Shown: in pieces, positions 13,835 through 21,221 of the stretch
Layout of the letters: each line of letters begins with the position of its first letter
Numbering within the stretch: the stretch's first letter is position 1
Source: Saprospiraceae bacterium
Lineage (GTDB): Bacteria > Bacteroidota > Bacteroidia > Chitinophagales > Saprospiraceae
Direction of reading: 5' to 3'
Assembly (NCBI GenBank): GCA_021298335.1
Contig: JAJTEZ010000009.1
Coordinates: 1-43,091 of the forward strand
Length of the DNA: 43,091 nt
The notes under the pieces: generated by a model
Seen by the model: the letters and a program-made list of their open reading frames with translations, nothing else
Database searches by the model: none
Told to the model about the DNA's origin: nothing
Translations under genes and position numbers: made by a program

Positions 13835-13916
13835 GCCGAAGTGGTGAAATTGGTAGACACGCACGTTTCAGAGGCGTGTGACGCGAGTCATGCGGGTTCG
13901 AGTCCCGCCTTCGGCA
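13835..13916 (+). tRNA. tRNA-Leu (anticodon CAG)
   Basis: All arms fold: acceptor GCCGAAG/CTTCGGC, anticodon stem CACGT/GCGTG with loop TTCAGAG (anticodon at 13869-13871), a long variable arm TGAC-GCGA-GTCA typical of class II leucine tRNAs, and T arm GCGGG-TTCGAGT-CCCGC. The discriminator is A. CCA is not encoded, so it must be added by the CCA-adding enzyme. A terminator follows within 10 nt. Confidence 0.96.
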
Positions 13917-13917
13917 C

Positions 13918-16677: not shown

Positions 16678-16704
16678 GTGGTGCTATACAATTACGCTGA
16701 AAAA

Positions 16705-17811
16705 ATGTACCAAACGTTCATCAAGTCCAGAAGAATCTATCGCAGGCTGACCTTCCTATTGGCGATTTACTTTGCTCACACTATAGGCATTCTTGGGCAG
16801 GGGATTGATTCGATTCCCCCCGTTTTAAAGCAAGACACACTCATCATTTCAGGTGTTGGCGATATGATGCTCGGTACAAATTACCCGTCAGAAGTACACC
16901 TCCCTCCTCAAGACGGCAAGGAAATCCTTAGCCCTGTAGCGGATCTCTTGCTGGCAGCAGATATTACTTTTGGCAATCTGGAAGGAGTGCTGCTTTCTGG
17001 GGAAGGGCAGCCTAAAAAATGCAGAGACCCTAAAAAATGTTACATCTTCAAAAGTCCCGACCATTACGTCACCTACTTTACAAAGGCAGGTTTTGATGTG
17101 CTGAGTGTCGCCAACAATCACGTGGGAGACTTTGGAGAAACGGGAAGAAAGAATACCGTGCGTCTGCTGGAGGAAGAAAAAATTGCCTTTGCGGGACTTG
17201 AGTCACACCCATATACCCTATTTGAAAGAGATAGTGTTCGCTATGGTTTTTGTGCATTTGCACCAAACACCGGGACAGTAAAAATCCACGACTATAAAAG
17301 GGCTTCCGAAATTATAACACACCTGGACTCGCTTTGCGACATAGTCATCGTATCCTTTCACGGTGGAGCTGAAGGACCATCTCACAACCGGATTACGCGC
17401 CAACAAGAAATGTACCTGGGGGAAAACAGAGGCAACCCATACACTTTTGCAAGAATGGCTATCGACGCAGGTGCTGATGTTGTATTCGGTCACGGTCCGC
17501 ATGTTGTCAGAGCCATTGATTTGTACAAAGACAGATTTATCGCCTACAGTCTTGGAAATTTTGCAACCTACGGAAGATTTAATGTCACTGGGCTGAGTGG
17601 CCTGGCACCCCTGATCTCTGTTTTTACAGATAAAAAAGGGAAATTTTTAAAGGCAAAAATCGATTCCGCCCGCCAAAAAGGGGAAGGTGGGCCACTCCTG
17701 GACCCGAATCATGGTGCTTTCAAAGAGATCAGACGACTTACTTTGCTGGATATTCCTGAATCAGAGCTTGAATTTTATGATGAGACACAGGAGGTTTTCA
17801 GAAAAAAATAA
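16705..17811 (+). CDS. CapA family (poly-gamma-glutamate-type) metallophosphatase-fold protein
   Basis: 368 aa from ATG 16705. A hydrophobic N-terminal segment (about 14-33) gives a signal peptide or membrane anchor. The PGA_cap domain follows: VGDMMLGTN, ITFGNLEGVLL, LSVANNHVGDFGE, IVSFHGGAEG and DVVFGHGPHVV, which are the conserved metal-binding patches of the family (GD, NxE, NNHxxD, H, GHxH). CapA of Bacillus takes part in poly-gamma-glutamate export; most homologues, including those in Bacteroidota, have no known substrate. No capB or capC is nearby, so a capsule role is not supported here. A GTG directly after the preceding stop (16678) would give nine more residues and is the alternative start. 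Confidence 0.82.
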   Translation: MYQTFIKSRRIYRRLTFLLAIYFAHTIGILGQGIDSIPPVLKQDTLIISGVGDMMLGTNYPSEVHLPPQDGKEILSPVADLLLAADITFGNLEGVLLSGEGQPKKCRDPKKCYIFKSPDHYVTYFTKAGFDVLSVANNHVGDFGETGRKNTVRLLEEEKIAFAGLESHPYTLFERDSVRYGFCAFAPNTGTVKIHDYKRASEIITHLDSLCDIVIVSFHGGAEGPSHNRITRQQEMYLGENRGNPYTFARMAIDAGADVVFGHGPHVVRAIDLYKDRFIAYSLGNFATYGRFNVTGLSGLAPLISVFTDKKGKFLKAKIDSARQKGEGGPLLDPNHGAFKEIRRLTLLDIPESELEFYDETQEVFRKK

Positions 17812-17872
17812 TCTTTGCTTGTCATGAAATTTTGTTGAATCAAAGCGGCCAGATATTTTTTATGTAAACCAT

Positions 17873-17901
17873 TTGCCGTTTTCTGAATTTTCTTACATTT
17901 G
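17873..17901 (+). promoter_or_regulatory. Promoter of the aromatic amino-acid operon
   Basis: TTG at 17873-17875, 18 bp, TACATTTG at 17894-17901. The expected start is about 5 nt on, almost at the ATG of the leader ORF (17906), so the leader mRNA may be leaderless. Confidence 0.6.
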
Positions 17902-17905
17902 TTTT

Positions 17906-17971
17906 ATGGTACGTCATTTTTCCACATTTACCGCCTTTTTCTGGTGCTTTAATTTCCAAGAAATGAAGTGA
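17906..17971 (+). CDS. Phe-rich leader peptide of a phenylalanine attenuator
   Basis: A 21-codon ORF (ATG 17906, TGA 17969-17971) lying between the operon promoter and an intrinsic terminator. Six of its 21 residues are Phe (positions 5, 8, 11, 12, 15 and 17), plus one Trp, a composition like that of PheL of enterobacteria. It ends 33 nt before the terminator stem. By analogy, ribosome stalling at Phe codons when Phe-tRNA is scarce would prevent the terminator from forming and allow transcription of pheA. The peptide itself is not expected to have a function. Too short for a homology call; the assignment rests on composition and position. Confidence 0.7.
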   Translation: MVRHFSTFTAFFWCFNFQEMK

Positions 17972-18004
17972 CAGGGCTTTATTGTAAATGTGTCAGTATA
18001 TTTC

Positions 18005-18041
18005 AGGGAGTTCTGTAACAAAACAGACTCCCTTTTTTTTT
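18005..18041 (+). terminator. Intrinsic terminator (attenuator) before pheA
   Basis: AGGGAG (18005-18010) pairs with CTCCCT (18028-18033), extended by TCTG/CAGA across a one-base bulge, with loop TAACAAAA and nine Ts at 18033-18041. It lies 15 nt before the pheA start codon. The upstream segment 17937-17944 can pair with 18003-18010 (four G-U pairs or weaker contacts included), a weak candidate for the competing structure. Confidence 0.75.
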
Positions 18042-18056
18042 CTAAACAATTGAACA

Positions 18057-18938
18057 ATGTCCCAAATCGCAAAATCTGTCAAAAAAATAGTGATCCAGGG
18101 TTATCCGGGCTCTTTTCACGAGGAGGCAGCCTTGCAATACTGGCAAGAAGAAACGATAGAAATAGTTCCGGCTGATACCTTTGATGACTTGGCAGCCATT
18201 CTGGTTGCAGGTAGCGCTGATTTTGCAGTCATGGCCATAGAAAACTCCATTGCAGGCACGATACTGCAAAACTACCGCATCCTCAGAGAGCACGGCTTTC
18301 ATGTCACTGGTGAGCTTTACCTGCGCATCAGACATCAACTGCTCGGCCTACCCGGTAGTTTAGTCACATCCCTTCAGCAGGTTGCCTCACACCCAATGGC
18401 ACTCAATCAATGCCTGCATTTTCTGGCAGAATATCCACAGTGGAAAAGAGTAGAATCTATAGACACAGCCCTGAGCGCCAAAGATATATCTCAGAAAGGG
18501 GACGCCTCAATAGCATGTATTGCAAGCAGTCTGGCCGCTCAAAAATACGGATTGCAAATCCTGGCACCCAACATAGAGACTCATAAGCATAACTACACAA
18601 GATTTTTTATTCTGCAGCGGACAGTATCACCCTGTTCGGCACTATCAGACAAAGCTTCCTTGTACATCAGGATTCCAGACAAAAAAGGACAATTGCTTCA
18701 GGTCTTAAGGTGGATCGATGTATTCGACCTAAACATGAGCCAGTTGCAATCTTTCCCGGTATTAGGGAGTCCGAGGGAATATTATTTTCATCTGGACGTA
18801 GAATTTGATTCACTTTCCCAATACGAACAGTTAAAAGAGAAACTTACTCAGGCAGATATGGGTTTTCATGAAACAGGGGTATATAAACGAGGCAGTCTCT
18901 CTAGCATTTATTTTGCCGACTCAAACACCACACCATGA
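18057..18938 (+). CDS. pheA: Prephenate dehydratase with ACT domain
   Basis: 293 aa. The catalytic domain (about 10-190) carries GYPGSFHEEAA, MAIENSIAGT (60-68), ASHPMALNQC and the active-site NYTRFFIL with Thr181-Arg182-Phe183. The regulatory ACT domain (about 200-275) follows. It converts prephenate to phenylpyruvate in phenylalanine synthesis. In phenylalanine-inhibited enzymes the ACT domain has GALV and ESRP motifs; here they read GQLL (211-214) and QSFP (231-234), so feedback binding may be altered. ATGA overlap with the aminotransferase gene. Transcription is probably controlled by the attenuator just upstream. Confidence 0.93.
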   Translation: MSQIAKSVKKIVIQGYPGSFHEEAALQYWQEETIEIVPADTFDDLAAILVAGSADFAVMAIENSIAGTILQNYRILREHGFHVTGELYLRIRHQLLGLPGSLVTSLQQVASHPMALNQCLHFLAEYPQWKRVESIDTALSAKDISQKGDASIACIASSLAAQKYGLQILAPNIETHKHNYTRFFILQRTVSPCSALSDKASLYIRIPDKKGQLLQVLRWIDVFDLNMSQLQSFPVLGSPREYYFHLDVEFDSLSQYEQLKEKLTQADMGFHETGVYKRGSLSSIYFADSNTTP

Positions 18939-20122
18939 AGGAAGCACTTCGACTGAATCAGATTTCTGAATACTATTTTGTGGCAAAACTGGCGGAAATA
19001 GAGCAACTTAACTCTTCAAGTGAGCTCAAGGTGCTCAACCTGGGCATCGGCAGTCCTGACCTGTCGCCTTCGGAAACTGTACTTGAAACTCTAAAGCAGG
19101 GGATGGATGAACCAGGAGCTCATGCGTACCAATCTTATAGAGGAACTTCCTTACTCCGAAATGCCATTGCCGCATGGTACAAGGACTGGTTTGATGTTTA
19201 CCTGCTCCCTGATAGTCAGATTCTCCCTCTGATGGGTTCAAAGGAAGGCATCATGCACATCAGCATGGCTTTTGTCAATCCAGGTGACAAGGTCTTGACT
19301 CCCAATCCGGGTTACCCATCTTATCGCAGTTGCACTCTCCTGGCGGGTGGTATACCGGTGGAAATGCCACTGAAAGCTACCAATCAATGGAGGCCTGATT
19401 TTGATATACTTTGTAAACAGGACCTCTCCAACCTGAAACTCATCTGGCTGAACTATCCCAATATGCCCACAGGAGCAAAGGCTGACCTTGGATTTTTTAG
19501 GGAAGCCGTGGCCTTTGCCAGAGCCCATAATGCAATCCTTTGCCACGATAATCCGTATGTGTTTTTGCTCAATGACCAACCTCTAAGTGCTCTTCAGGCA
19601 GATGATTCACTGGAAAATGTCCTTGAACTGACTTCGTTGAGTAAATGCTACAATATGGCCGGATGGCGGGTAGGTTCGGTCTGCGGTCACCGAGATCATA
19701 TTTCTGCTATCATGGCATTTCGGAGTCAGATGGATTCCGGCATGCTTAAACCCGTTCAGCAAGCTGCTGCCAAAGCACTTGCTTCAGACCGGCATTGGAC
19801 GTATCAACTCAATTCTACTTATACCCGGCGACAGCAGATTGGCTATAAAATCATGGAAGCCCTACATCTAGAAACGGCAGGAAATGCATCAGGTTTGTTT
19901 TTGTGGGGAAAAGTCGCTACACCTGATATCAACGGAGAACAACTTTCCATTGCGTTACTTCAACAAACAAGGGTTTTCATCACTCCGGGACACATTTTTG
20001 GAAGTGAAGGAGACCAATATCTCCGTCTTTCCCTTTGCAGCCCTGAATCAGATCTTGAGGCAGCATTATATCGGATCCAAACGATGTTTCACCTTGAATC
20101 AGAACAGAGTACAACATATTAA
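18935..20122 (+). CDS. Class I/II PLP aminotransferase, probably for aromatic amino acids or prephenate
   Basis: 395 aa, fold-type I. Visible motifs: LGIGSPDLSPSE, substrate-binding YQSYRGTSLLRNAI, GSKEGIMH (101-108), NYPNMPTG (173-180), Asp205-Asn-Pro-Tyr208 for the pyridine ring, and the PLP lysine Lys237 in SLSKCYNMAGWRVG with Arg245 for phosphate. Family members include LL-diaminopimelate and aspartate/aromatic aminotransferases. Its position between pheA and the DAHP synthase gene, overlapping pheA by 4 nt, makes transamination of phenylpyruvate or prephenate the most likely job; sequence alone does not fix the substrate. Confidence 0.85.
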   Translation: MKEALRLNQISEYYFVAKLAEIEQLNSSSELKVLNLGIGSPDLSPSETVLETLKQGMDEPGAHAYQSYRGTSLLRNAIAAWYKDWFDVYLLPDSQILPLMGSKEGIMHISMAFVNPGDKVLTPNPGYPSYRSCTLLAGGIPVEMPLKATNQWRPDFDILCKQDLSNLKLIWLNYPNMPTGAKADLGFFREAVAFARAHNAILCHDNPYVFLLNDQPLSALQADDSLENVLELTSLSKCYNMAGWRVGSVCGHRDHISAIMAFRSQMDSGMLKPVQQAAAKALASDRHWTYQLNSTYTRRQQIGYKIMEALHLETAGNASGLFLWGKVATPDINGEQLSIALLQQTRVFITPGHIFGSEGDQYLRLSLCSPESDLEAALYRIQTMFHLESEQSTTY

Positions 20123-20150: not shown

Positions 20151-21221
20151 ATGACTCAGGCATCAATCTTACAGAAAAAACACCTTCTCATTGCGGGACC
20201 TTGCAGCGCAGAAACAGAAAATCAGGTTCTTGAAACAGCGCAACGACTGAAAAATACAGGCCGTGTTGACGTCTTGCGTGCAGGAATCTGGAAACCGCGC
20301 ACACGCCCGGGCGCCTTTGAAGGTATTGGGGCCAAGGGGCTCCCATGGCTCCAAAAGGCCAAGCAACTTACAGGACTACCTCTTGCAGTGGAAGTTGCAA
20401 AATCGTCTCACGTTGAACTGTGTCTTGAATTTGGTATTGACGTTTTATGGATTGGCGCAAGGACAACGGTCAACCCCTTTGCAGTCCAGGAAATAGCAGA
20501 CGCCCTGAAAGGTACCGATATACCCGTACTATTAAAAAACCCCATCAACCCGGATCTGTCGTTGTGGCTTGGAGGCATGGAAAGGCTGCAAAATGCAGGG
20601 CTTACCCAGTTGGGAGCTATTCATCGCGGCTTTTCTTTTACGGGAGAAAAAATATATCGAAACCGCCCACAATGGCAGATTGCTATTGATTTTAAAACAG
20701 CCATGCCCGATATTCCTATAATCAATGACCCAAGTCACATTTGCGGTAAACGGAACCTGCTACAGCGAGTAGCACAAAAAGCAATGGATCTGAATTTTGA
20801 CGGACTGATGATTGAGTCACACATTACTCCGGATGAGGCATGGAGTGATGCAGCACAACAAATCACGCCAAAAGAATATGCTCTTCTCATAGAAAGTCTT
20901 GTGATCCGGGAAAATGACCCTGCAAACCTGACTGAAAAATCTCAGCTGGACAGGTTCAGAAAGGAGATCGACCTTATCGATGAGGAGATTTTACACATCC
21001 TTGCTTCAAGAATGAAGGTAGTTCGAAGTATTGGTCAATACAAAAAAGAAAATAACATGACCATCCTTCAAAGTAACAGATGGCAGGAAATTCTCCAAAA
21101 ATACATCGAAAGGGGCGTACAAAACGGCCTAAGTGAAGAGTTTATCACCCGCTTGATCAAAAATATTCACGACGAAAGCATAGAACAGCAAGATAAAGTA
21201 ATGTCGGAAGATGTAAACTGA
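20151..21221 (+). CDS. Bifunctional DAHP synthase-chorismate mutase
   Basis: 356 aa. Residues 1-255 are a type I-beta 3-deoxy-D-arabino-heptulosonate 7-phosphate synthase: AGPCSAE (15-21), RAGIWKPRTRPGAFEGIG, WIGARTTVNPF, LLKNPINPD and HRGF, then NDPSHICGKR. Residues about 262-350 form an AroQ-type chorismate mutase domain (LDRFRKEIDLIDEEILHILASRM, IGQYKKENN). The fusion places the first step of the shikimate pathway and the branch-point step to prephenate in one polypeptide, an arrangement known in Bacteroidota, where the mutase domain also regulates the synthase. It starts 28 nt after the aminotransferase. No tyrA lies in the operon; the next gene is murA on the other strand, with only 8 nt between stops. 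Confidence 0.93.
   Translation: MTQASILQKKHLLIAGPCSAETENQVLETAQRLKNTGRVDVLRAGIWKPRTRPGAFEGIGAKGLPWLQKAKQLTGLPLAVEVAKSSHVELCLEFGIDVLWIGARTTVNPFAVQEIADALKGTDIPVLLKNPINPDLSLWLGGMERLQNAGLTQLGAIHRGFSFTGEKIYRNRPQWQIAIDFKTAMPDIPIINDPSHICGKRNLLQRVAQKAMDLNFDGLMIESHITPDEAWSDAAQQITPKEYALLIESLVIRENDPANLTEKSQLDRFRKEIDLIDEEILHILASRMKVVRSIGQYKKENNMTILQSNRWQEILQKYIERGVQNGLSEEFITRLIKNIHDESIEQQDKVMSEDVN

Follow-up and report, generated by a model that had tools for sequence, protein, structure and literature searches.

The region upstream of pheA in a 43,091-nucleotide stretch of Saprospiraceae DNA (contig JAJTEZ010000009.1, positions 1 to 43,091; hereafter the window) very probably encodes a ribosome-mediated transcription attenuator that senses charged tRNA-Phe, and we put the probability of this reading at about 0.9. 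An earlier, sequence-only reading had proposed attenuation of this kind. Comparison with relatives supports it: the Phe codons and the terminator are conserved, and the terminator arm covaries with the antiterminator. To judge from the sequences, the element is an ordinary kind of attenuator with good comparative support and three testable oddities.

In the proposed mechanism, transcription would start at or beside the A of the leader AUG, and translation would be leaderless or nearly so. When phenylalanine is short, the ribosome would stall on the Phe codons at 17936-17956 and leave region 2 free to pair with region 3, so that transcription would read through into the pheA, aminotransferase and DAHP synthase/chorismate mutase genes. 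When phenylalanine is plentiful, a ribosome at the stop codon (17969-17971) would cover region 2; region 3 would then pair with region 4 and transcription would terminate at 18005-18041.

Organization of the pheA leader region

Direct reading confirms the arrangement described from the sequence (Table 1): a promoter is followed by a 21-codon ORF in which six codons are Phe, then by a terminator whose T run is nine long, and 15 nt beyond that run comes the ATG of pheA. The promoter has TTTG near -33 and TAnnTTTG at -7, the Bacteroidota consensus being taken from PMC7366714. The leader ORF is rich in codons for the product amino acid, its six Phe codons starting at 17918, 17927, 17936, 17939, 17948 and 17954. 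Between this ORF and the first gene lies the intrinsic terminator, whose hairpin of 11 pairs (-15.0 kcal/mol) contains a single bulged U; the leader ends at a stop codon 85 nt upstream of pheA. The fold of RNA 17900-18060 is more stable than that of shuffled sequences (z -2.41; 3 of 200 shuffles at least as good). A consensus scanner reported no sigma-70 promoter on the + strand and no terminator within 17500-18500; it looks for promoters of a different type, and a bulged stem seems to be outside what it accepts.

Table 1. Features of the attenuator and the operon in the window.
Feature	Position	Strand	Remarks
Promoter, Bacteroidota primary-sigma-type	17872-17901	+	TTTG 17872-17875, 18 nt spacer, TACATTTG -7 box 17894-17901
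Leader ORF MVRHFSTFTAFFWCFNFQEMK, then stop	17906-17971	+	21 codons: six Phe, one Trp, no Tyr; predicted leaderless start
Helix P1, 5' strand (leader codons 6-9)	17923-17931	+	partner 17984-17992; swap test
Region 2, antiterminator 5' strand ACAGGGCUUU	17971-17980	+	overlaps leader stop codon
Helix P1, 3' strand	17984-17992	+	between antiterminator segment and terminator
Intrinsic terminator	18005-18041	+	hairpin 18005-18033, nine T 18033-18041
Region 3, antiterminator 3' strand GGAGUUCUGU	18007-18016	+	also part of terminator 5' arm
pheA, prephenate dehydratase (PF00800)	18057-18938	+	domain match
Aminotransferase class I/II (PF00155)	18935-20122	+	domain match
DAHP synthase fused to chorismate mutase (PF00793 + PF01817)	20151-21221	+	domain match

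The gene that follows the DAHP synthase/chorismate mutase gene is on the opposite strand. The best named matches are Bacteroidetes and Saprospiraceae assemblies. The gene upstream of the leader region (16678-17811) encodes a PGA_cap-domain protein (PF09587), whose match to the model of a lasso peptide epimerase scores far under the threshold; no connection of this gene to the attenuator was seen.

Phe/Tyr-rich leader ORFs upstream of pheA

The window contains 469 ATG ORFs of 10-25 codons, two of them with at least six Phe codons, and dinucleotide shuffles of 17812-18056 gave a 10-25-codon ATG ORF with at least six Phe in 200 of 5000 cases, so the window ORF taken alone is unremarkable. Its reality as a leader is decided by recurrence across relatives, as judged by sequence comparison, and not by the single sequence. 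We drew 395 genomes evenly from the class, of which 107 had a match; the own genome and seven distant matches were left out and 99 were fetched. In all, 200 pheA loci were taken, and removal of three that were identical over 120 nt upstream left 197.

An ATG ORF with at least seven F/Y/W in 10 codons occurs in 60 of 97 pheA upstream regions vs 3 of 1940 shuffles. With a threshold of at least six F/Y/W in 10 codons, a Phe/Tyr-rich leader ORF is found at 139 of the 197 loci and none at 58; for the loci fetched from the evenly drawn class sample the figure is 70/96. The 139 loci are a lower bound, because leaders that start with GTG or TTG (for example L035 and L037) were excluded from the count. 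Example leaders are MNIVYKYFISFFYFYFYFRNR (L053) and MKLNQSTFAAFYFWYFYFKIE (L298); apart from their Phe/Tyr content, the sequences vary widely between loci.

Four congeners have a pheA match (L005, L297, L298 and L299). Their leaders share five Phe columns, four of them Phe in all four sequences and the fifth in three (Ser in L299). Conservation of the Phe codons in close relatives had been set beforehand as a test of the attenuator reading, and the window keeps all five columns.

Terminators and serial leaders

Conservation of the terminator in relatives, the companion expectation, is also borne out: 144 of 155 leaders have a downstream terminator at least as stable as -8 kcal/mol (30/620 for shuffles). 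Four loci were dropped from the terminator-energy step onward. At 16 of the 139 loci two leaders stand in series upstream of pheA, and in all 16 both have a terminator (L033, L034, L036, L040, L200, L202, L222, L247, L269, L270, L306, L307, L308, L311, L313 and L314). The two leaders of a pair are apparently not divided by amino acid, since both mix Phe and Tyr in the loci inspected. Tandem attenuators have been published for Salmonella mgtCBR, a different system (PMC3641672).

Predicted antiterminator and ribosome position

Next to the leader stop codon lies a segment, often AGGGACUU-like, that pairs with the terminator's 5' arm, the sequence of which varies from locus to locus. For 63 leaders the pairing of this segment with its own arm averaged -9.2 kcal/mol vs -6.6 kcal/mol with swapped arms, and none of 20000 permutations was as good; a wider search span gave -12.6 vs -8.5 kcal/mol (0/20000, and again 0/20000 for a thinned set of 37). 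From these tests and the P1 test below, 12 frames were dropped that had been named by hand and mostly overlap others (those at L011 and L017 may be real leaders), as were leaders lacking a terminator that reaches -8 kcal/mol. Repeating the analysis on 144 leaders without hand choice gave a mean of -13.2 for own vs -8.7 kcal/mol for swapped arms, with no permutation of 5000 as good; after thinning to 81 dissimilar leaders the result was still 0/5000. The terminator arm thus covaries with the antiterminator segment, as the sequence-only reading had expected of stems in relatives.

The antiterminator that reading had tentatively drawn, 17937-17944 : 18003-18010, is not borne out. Its 5' strand falls on the F11-F12-W13 codons and would be hidden by a ribosome stalled at them, and it is the stop-codon-adjoining segment that recurs in relatives. 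It is replaced by 17971-17980 : 18007-18016, which has ten pairs, four of them G-U. By itself region 2 of the window is generic, as 27% of the arms of other loci pair with it as well or better.

For 138 leaders, region 2 starts before the first base of the stop codon in 92 and at or after it in 46. Several ORFs that run on past region 2 end in GLER or GFER (L059, L062, L071, L073, L081, L095, L096 and L255), a recurrence that may reflect an RNA constraint rather than a peptide function. In 108 of the 138 leaders, a count with no null of its own, region 2 begins 12-20 nt downstream of the first base of the last F/Y codon, roughly half the length of a ribosome footprint; in the window it begins 17 nt downstream.

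Folding of the window RNA with a masked ribosome footprint follows the same scheme. With the A site at F11, F12, F15 or F17, nine of the ten antiterminator pairs form when the transcript ends at 18016 or 18022, and with the ribosome at the stop codon none of the ten does. As computed from the swap tests and the footprint folding, the antiterminator is exclusive with the terminator and gated by ribosome position. Once the transcript reaches 18033 or 18041, all six folded states contain the terminator; readthrough must be a matter of timing, because the terminator wins in the complete transcript. In ribosome-free folding the antiterminator forms too, ahead of the synthesis of region 4, so a leader that is not translated might allow readthrough. 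The untranslated leader of E. coli trp is not known to do so.

A further helix, P1, links the leader codons with the linker. Its own-partner pairing averages -8.3 vs -6.3 for swapped partners (n = 60, three leaders with short linkers also being left out; 0 of 20000 permutations as good), so that P1 is locus-specific on average. The own partner ranks in the best tenth for 23 of the 60 leaders; L042 and L043 (ranks 0.90 and 0.97) are not among them. One possibility is that P1 makes the polymerase pause, another that it keeps the leader closed.

Alternative explanations

A simpler account would have a plain terminator that ends the upstream unit or serves as a constitutive brake, with a Phe-rich ORF in front of it by chance and translation irrelevant. 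The T-rich composition of the region and the shuffle count given above speak for a chance ORF; the recurrence of leaders at 139/197 pheA loci and the own-arm pairing, equalled in 0/5000 permutations, speak against it, and the T run ends too close to the ATG of pheA (15 nt) to leave much space for a second promoter. We regard this account as having almost no probability. Hardly better placed, and still very improbable, is a leader ORF that works not through transcription termination but mainly on translation, by coupling to pheA or re-initiation there, or through a peptide-specific arrest. Leader genes that sit near structural genes are common in several phyla and may help re-initiation, with a distance peak of 11-14 bp in Bacteroidetes (PMC4833913), whereas here 85 nt and a strong terminator separate the leader stop codon from pheA, and the wide divergence of leader sequences in all save Phe/Tyr content argues against a specific arrest peptide.

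The other alternative keeps the attenuator and concerns its 5' end. A leaderless mRNA for the leader peptide had been suggested for the window, and the position of the promoter box favours it. The only strict TAnnTTTG within 17700-17905 ends 4 nt before the leader ATG, and the spacer is exactly 4 nt in the four congeners as well. Across the loci an exact 4-nt spacer precedes 8 of 138 first leaders vs 19 of 23299 other ATGs; five of the eight belong to one genus (L001, the locus of the window, L005, L297, L298 and L299; the others are L290, L301 and L303). L033, L034 and L036 have a 4-nt spacer too, with a TATGTTTA box. As the box occupies -12 to -5 in F. psychrophilum (PMC9723704), the predicted start is the A of the leader ATG, 17906; the 4 or 5 nt box-to-start spacing taken to mark probable promoters in F. 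johnsoniae (PMC6847099) predicts a start at about 17905-17907. Transcription from a point upstream of 17900, giving the same attenuator an ordinary 5' UTR, seems unlikely to us, yet it deserves more weight than the two accounts above. A short ordinary 5' UTR is the commoner layout: of the 86 strict boxes found upstream of the 138 first leaders, 49 lie at 15-30 nt from the ATG (32 at 17-21 nt) and 20 at 4-9 nt. Leaderless mRNAs are 5.5% in F. psychrophilum (PMC9723704), and 5' UTRs shorter than 10 nt about 3.7% in B. thetaiotaomicron (PMC7366714). Against it stand the single strict box of the window, the spacer common to the congeners and the rarity of that spacer at other ATGs. From the box position we predict that the leader mRNA would be leaderless, a prediction that is strong for this genus.

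Relation to known attenuators

Ribosome-mediated attenuation is best known from Proteobacteria, where the leaders are generally Shine-Dalgarno-led. A codon-counting sensor in a phylum without Shine-Dalgarno starts raises the question of how leader translation is synchronised with transcription; if the leader starts at the mRNA 5' end, ribosome loading and transcription start coincide.

The attenuation mechanism is known, and the element in Bacteroidota is at least hinted at in the literature. In enterobacteria the PheL attenuator, with its Phe-rich leader peptide and mutually exclusive antiterminator and terminator, stands in front of pheA. The window element has the same layout; it differs in its Bacteroidota promoter, its predicted leaderless start and the mixture of Phe and Tyr codons in the leaders of its relatives, and the operon differs in its content (pheA, aminotransferase, in some cases tyrA, and DAHP synthase/chorismate mutase). 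Attenuation of pheA in E. coli and S. typhimurium is mentioned in PMC1183508, where regions II:III and III:IV of E. coli trp are described as mutually exclusive and set by ribosome position on the regulatory codons. Compared with trp, the window RNA has Phe and not Trp codons, probably lacks a Shine-Dalgarno-led start and, in folding, has no protector 1:2 that beats 2:3 without a ribosome.

A search of Rfam (release 15, gathering threshold), whose families include the enterobacterial Phe leader, matched a tRNA alone in the window and nothing in 20 related loci. This tRNA, at 13835-13917, is a tRNA-Leu (anticodon CAG), and the window yielded no other. Bacteroid-trp (RF01692), which we take to be a Trp leader attenuator, had no match in the window, the own genome or the loci of 20 relatives; it has been published as a candidate cis-regulatory RNA of Bacteroidetes (PMC2864571). 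In F. psychrophilum a structured 5' element lies upstream of pheA, is conserved in other Flavobacteriaceae and has no Rfam hits, and 'strong clues' for leader peptide attenuation are reported at amino acid operons (PMC9723704). By its description this pheA element resembles that of the window; the section concerned contains no analysis of Phe/Tyr codons, no antiterminator and no tandem copies. The B. thetaiotaomicron transcriptome has sORFs in long 5' UTRs that are reminiscent of leader peptides (PMC7366714). The main text of a terminator survey (PMC2965389) has no words beginning Bacteroid, Flavobacter or Phe. Leaderless starts, serial copies and loss of Tyr codons with tyrA were not found in full-text searches of a library of open papers, and a comparative paper on bacterial attenuation (Lopatovskaya 2010) may list similar cases.

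Tyrosine codons and tyrA

In the congeners L297, L298 and L299 the aminotransferase and DAHP synthase genes flank tyrA (shown for genome G007). By direct reading tyrA is absent from the window operon, where the aminotransferase gene ends at 20122 and the next gene begins at 20151; at L005 the contig ends before the tyrA position could be judged. Neither PF02153 (tyrA) nor PF00351 (phenylalanine hydroxylase, another source of Tyr) matched in the own genome, which is 83.7% complete, so that their genome-wide absence is unproven. The congener leaders share three Tyr columns (one is Phe in L297); in the window one of these codons is gone, one is Cys and one Asn. If three of the eight shared columns were lost at random, exactly the Tyr ones would be hit in one way out of 56, and the window has the only leader among the 139 loci without a Tyr codon.

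Over the whole set, the mean Y/(F+Y) is 0.44 at the 108 loci where tyrA was seen, none of which lacks Tyr, and 0.30 at nine loci that showed no tyrA and none of the later shikimate genes (EPSP or chorismate synthase, labelled by eye) (Mann-Whitney p = 0.006, kinship ignored). The window, whose stretch L001 is short, was assigned to the tyrA-less group by hand; with it taken out, eight loci have a mean of 0.34 (p = 0.019, kinship ignored). A further 17 loci, where later shikimate genes were seen but tyrA was not, have a mean Tyr share of 0.55, and all 26 tyrA-less loci pooled do not differ from those with tyrA (0.47 vs 0.44, p = 0.98, kinship ignored). L075, L249 and L288 have Tyr codons in the leader though no tyrA was seen in the operon; at L075 and L098 a later tyrA would escape notice, because the stretches stop about 3.3 kb after pheA. 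L047, which falls below the six-in-ten rule and hence outside the 139 loci, shares the window's gene order, tyrA being absent, and has five Phe plus a single Tyr in its leader.

Within the genus, then, the match between Tyr codons and tyrA appears clear from the sequences; beyond it the match is only suggestive. The odds of the main attenuator reading are unchanged by these wider Tyr statistics, on which it does not depend. The ancestral attenuator probably sensed both Phe and Tyr, because the leaders of relatives carry both codons. We infer that loss of tyrA caused the loss of the Tyr codons, and the attenuator has apparently been narrowed here to phenylalanine, the neighbouring tyrosine gene being missing. 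That one species lacks both Tyr codons and an operon tyrA, in a genus whose leaders otherwise contain Tyr, amounts to a natural experiment on the amino acid that is sensed, and the contrast makes the mechanism directly testable. That the window represents a widespread Bacteroidota family of Phe/Tyr leader-peptide attenuators governing aromatic amino acid synthesis, some, that of the window among them, starting at the mRNA 5' end and some in serial pairs, whose Tyr codons were lost here with tyrA, is in our view slightly favoured as a whole.

Matches to prephenate dehydratase and to PF02153 are both absent in five of nine congeners (G002, G003, G005, G008 and G009; G008 is only 65% complete); Phe and Tyr synthesis may have been lost repeatedly in the genus.
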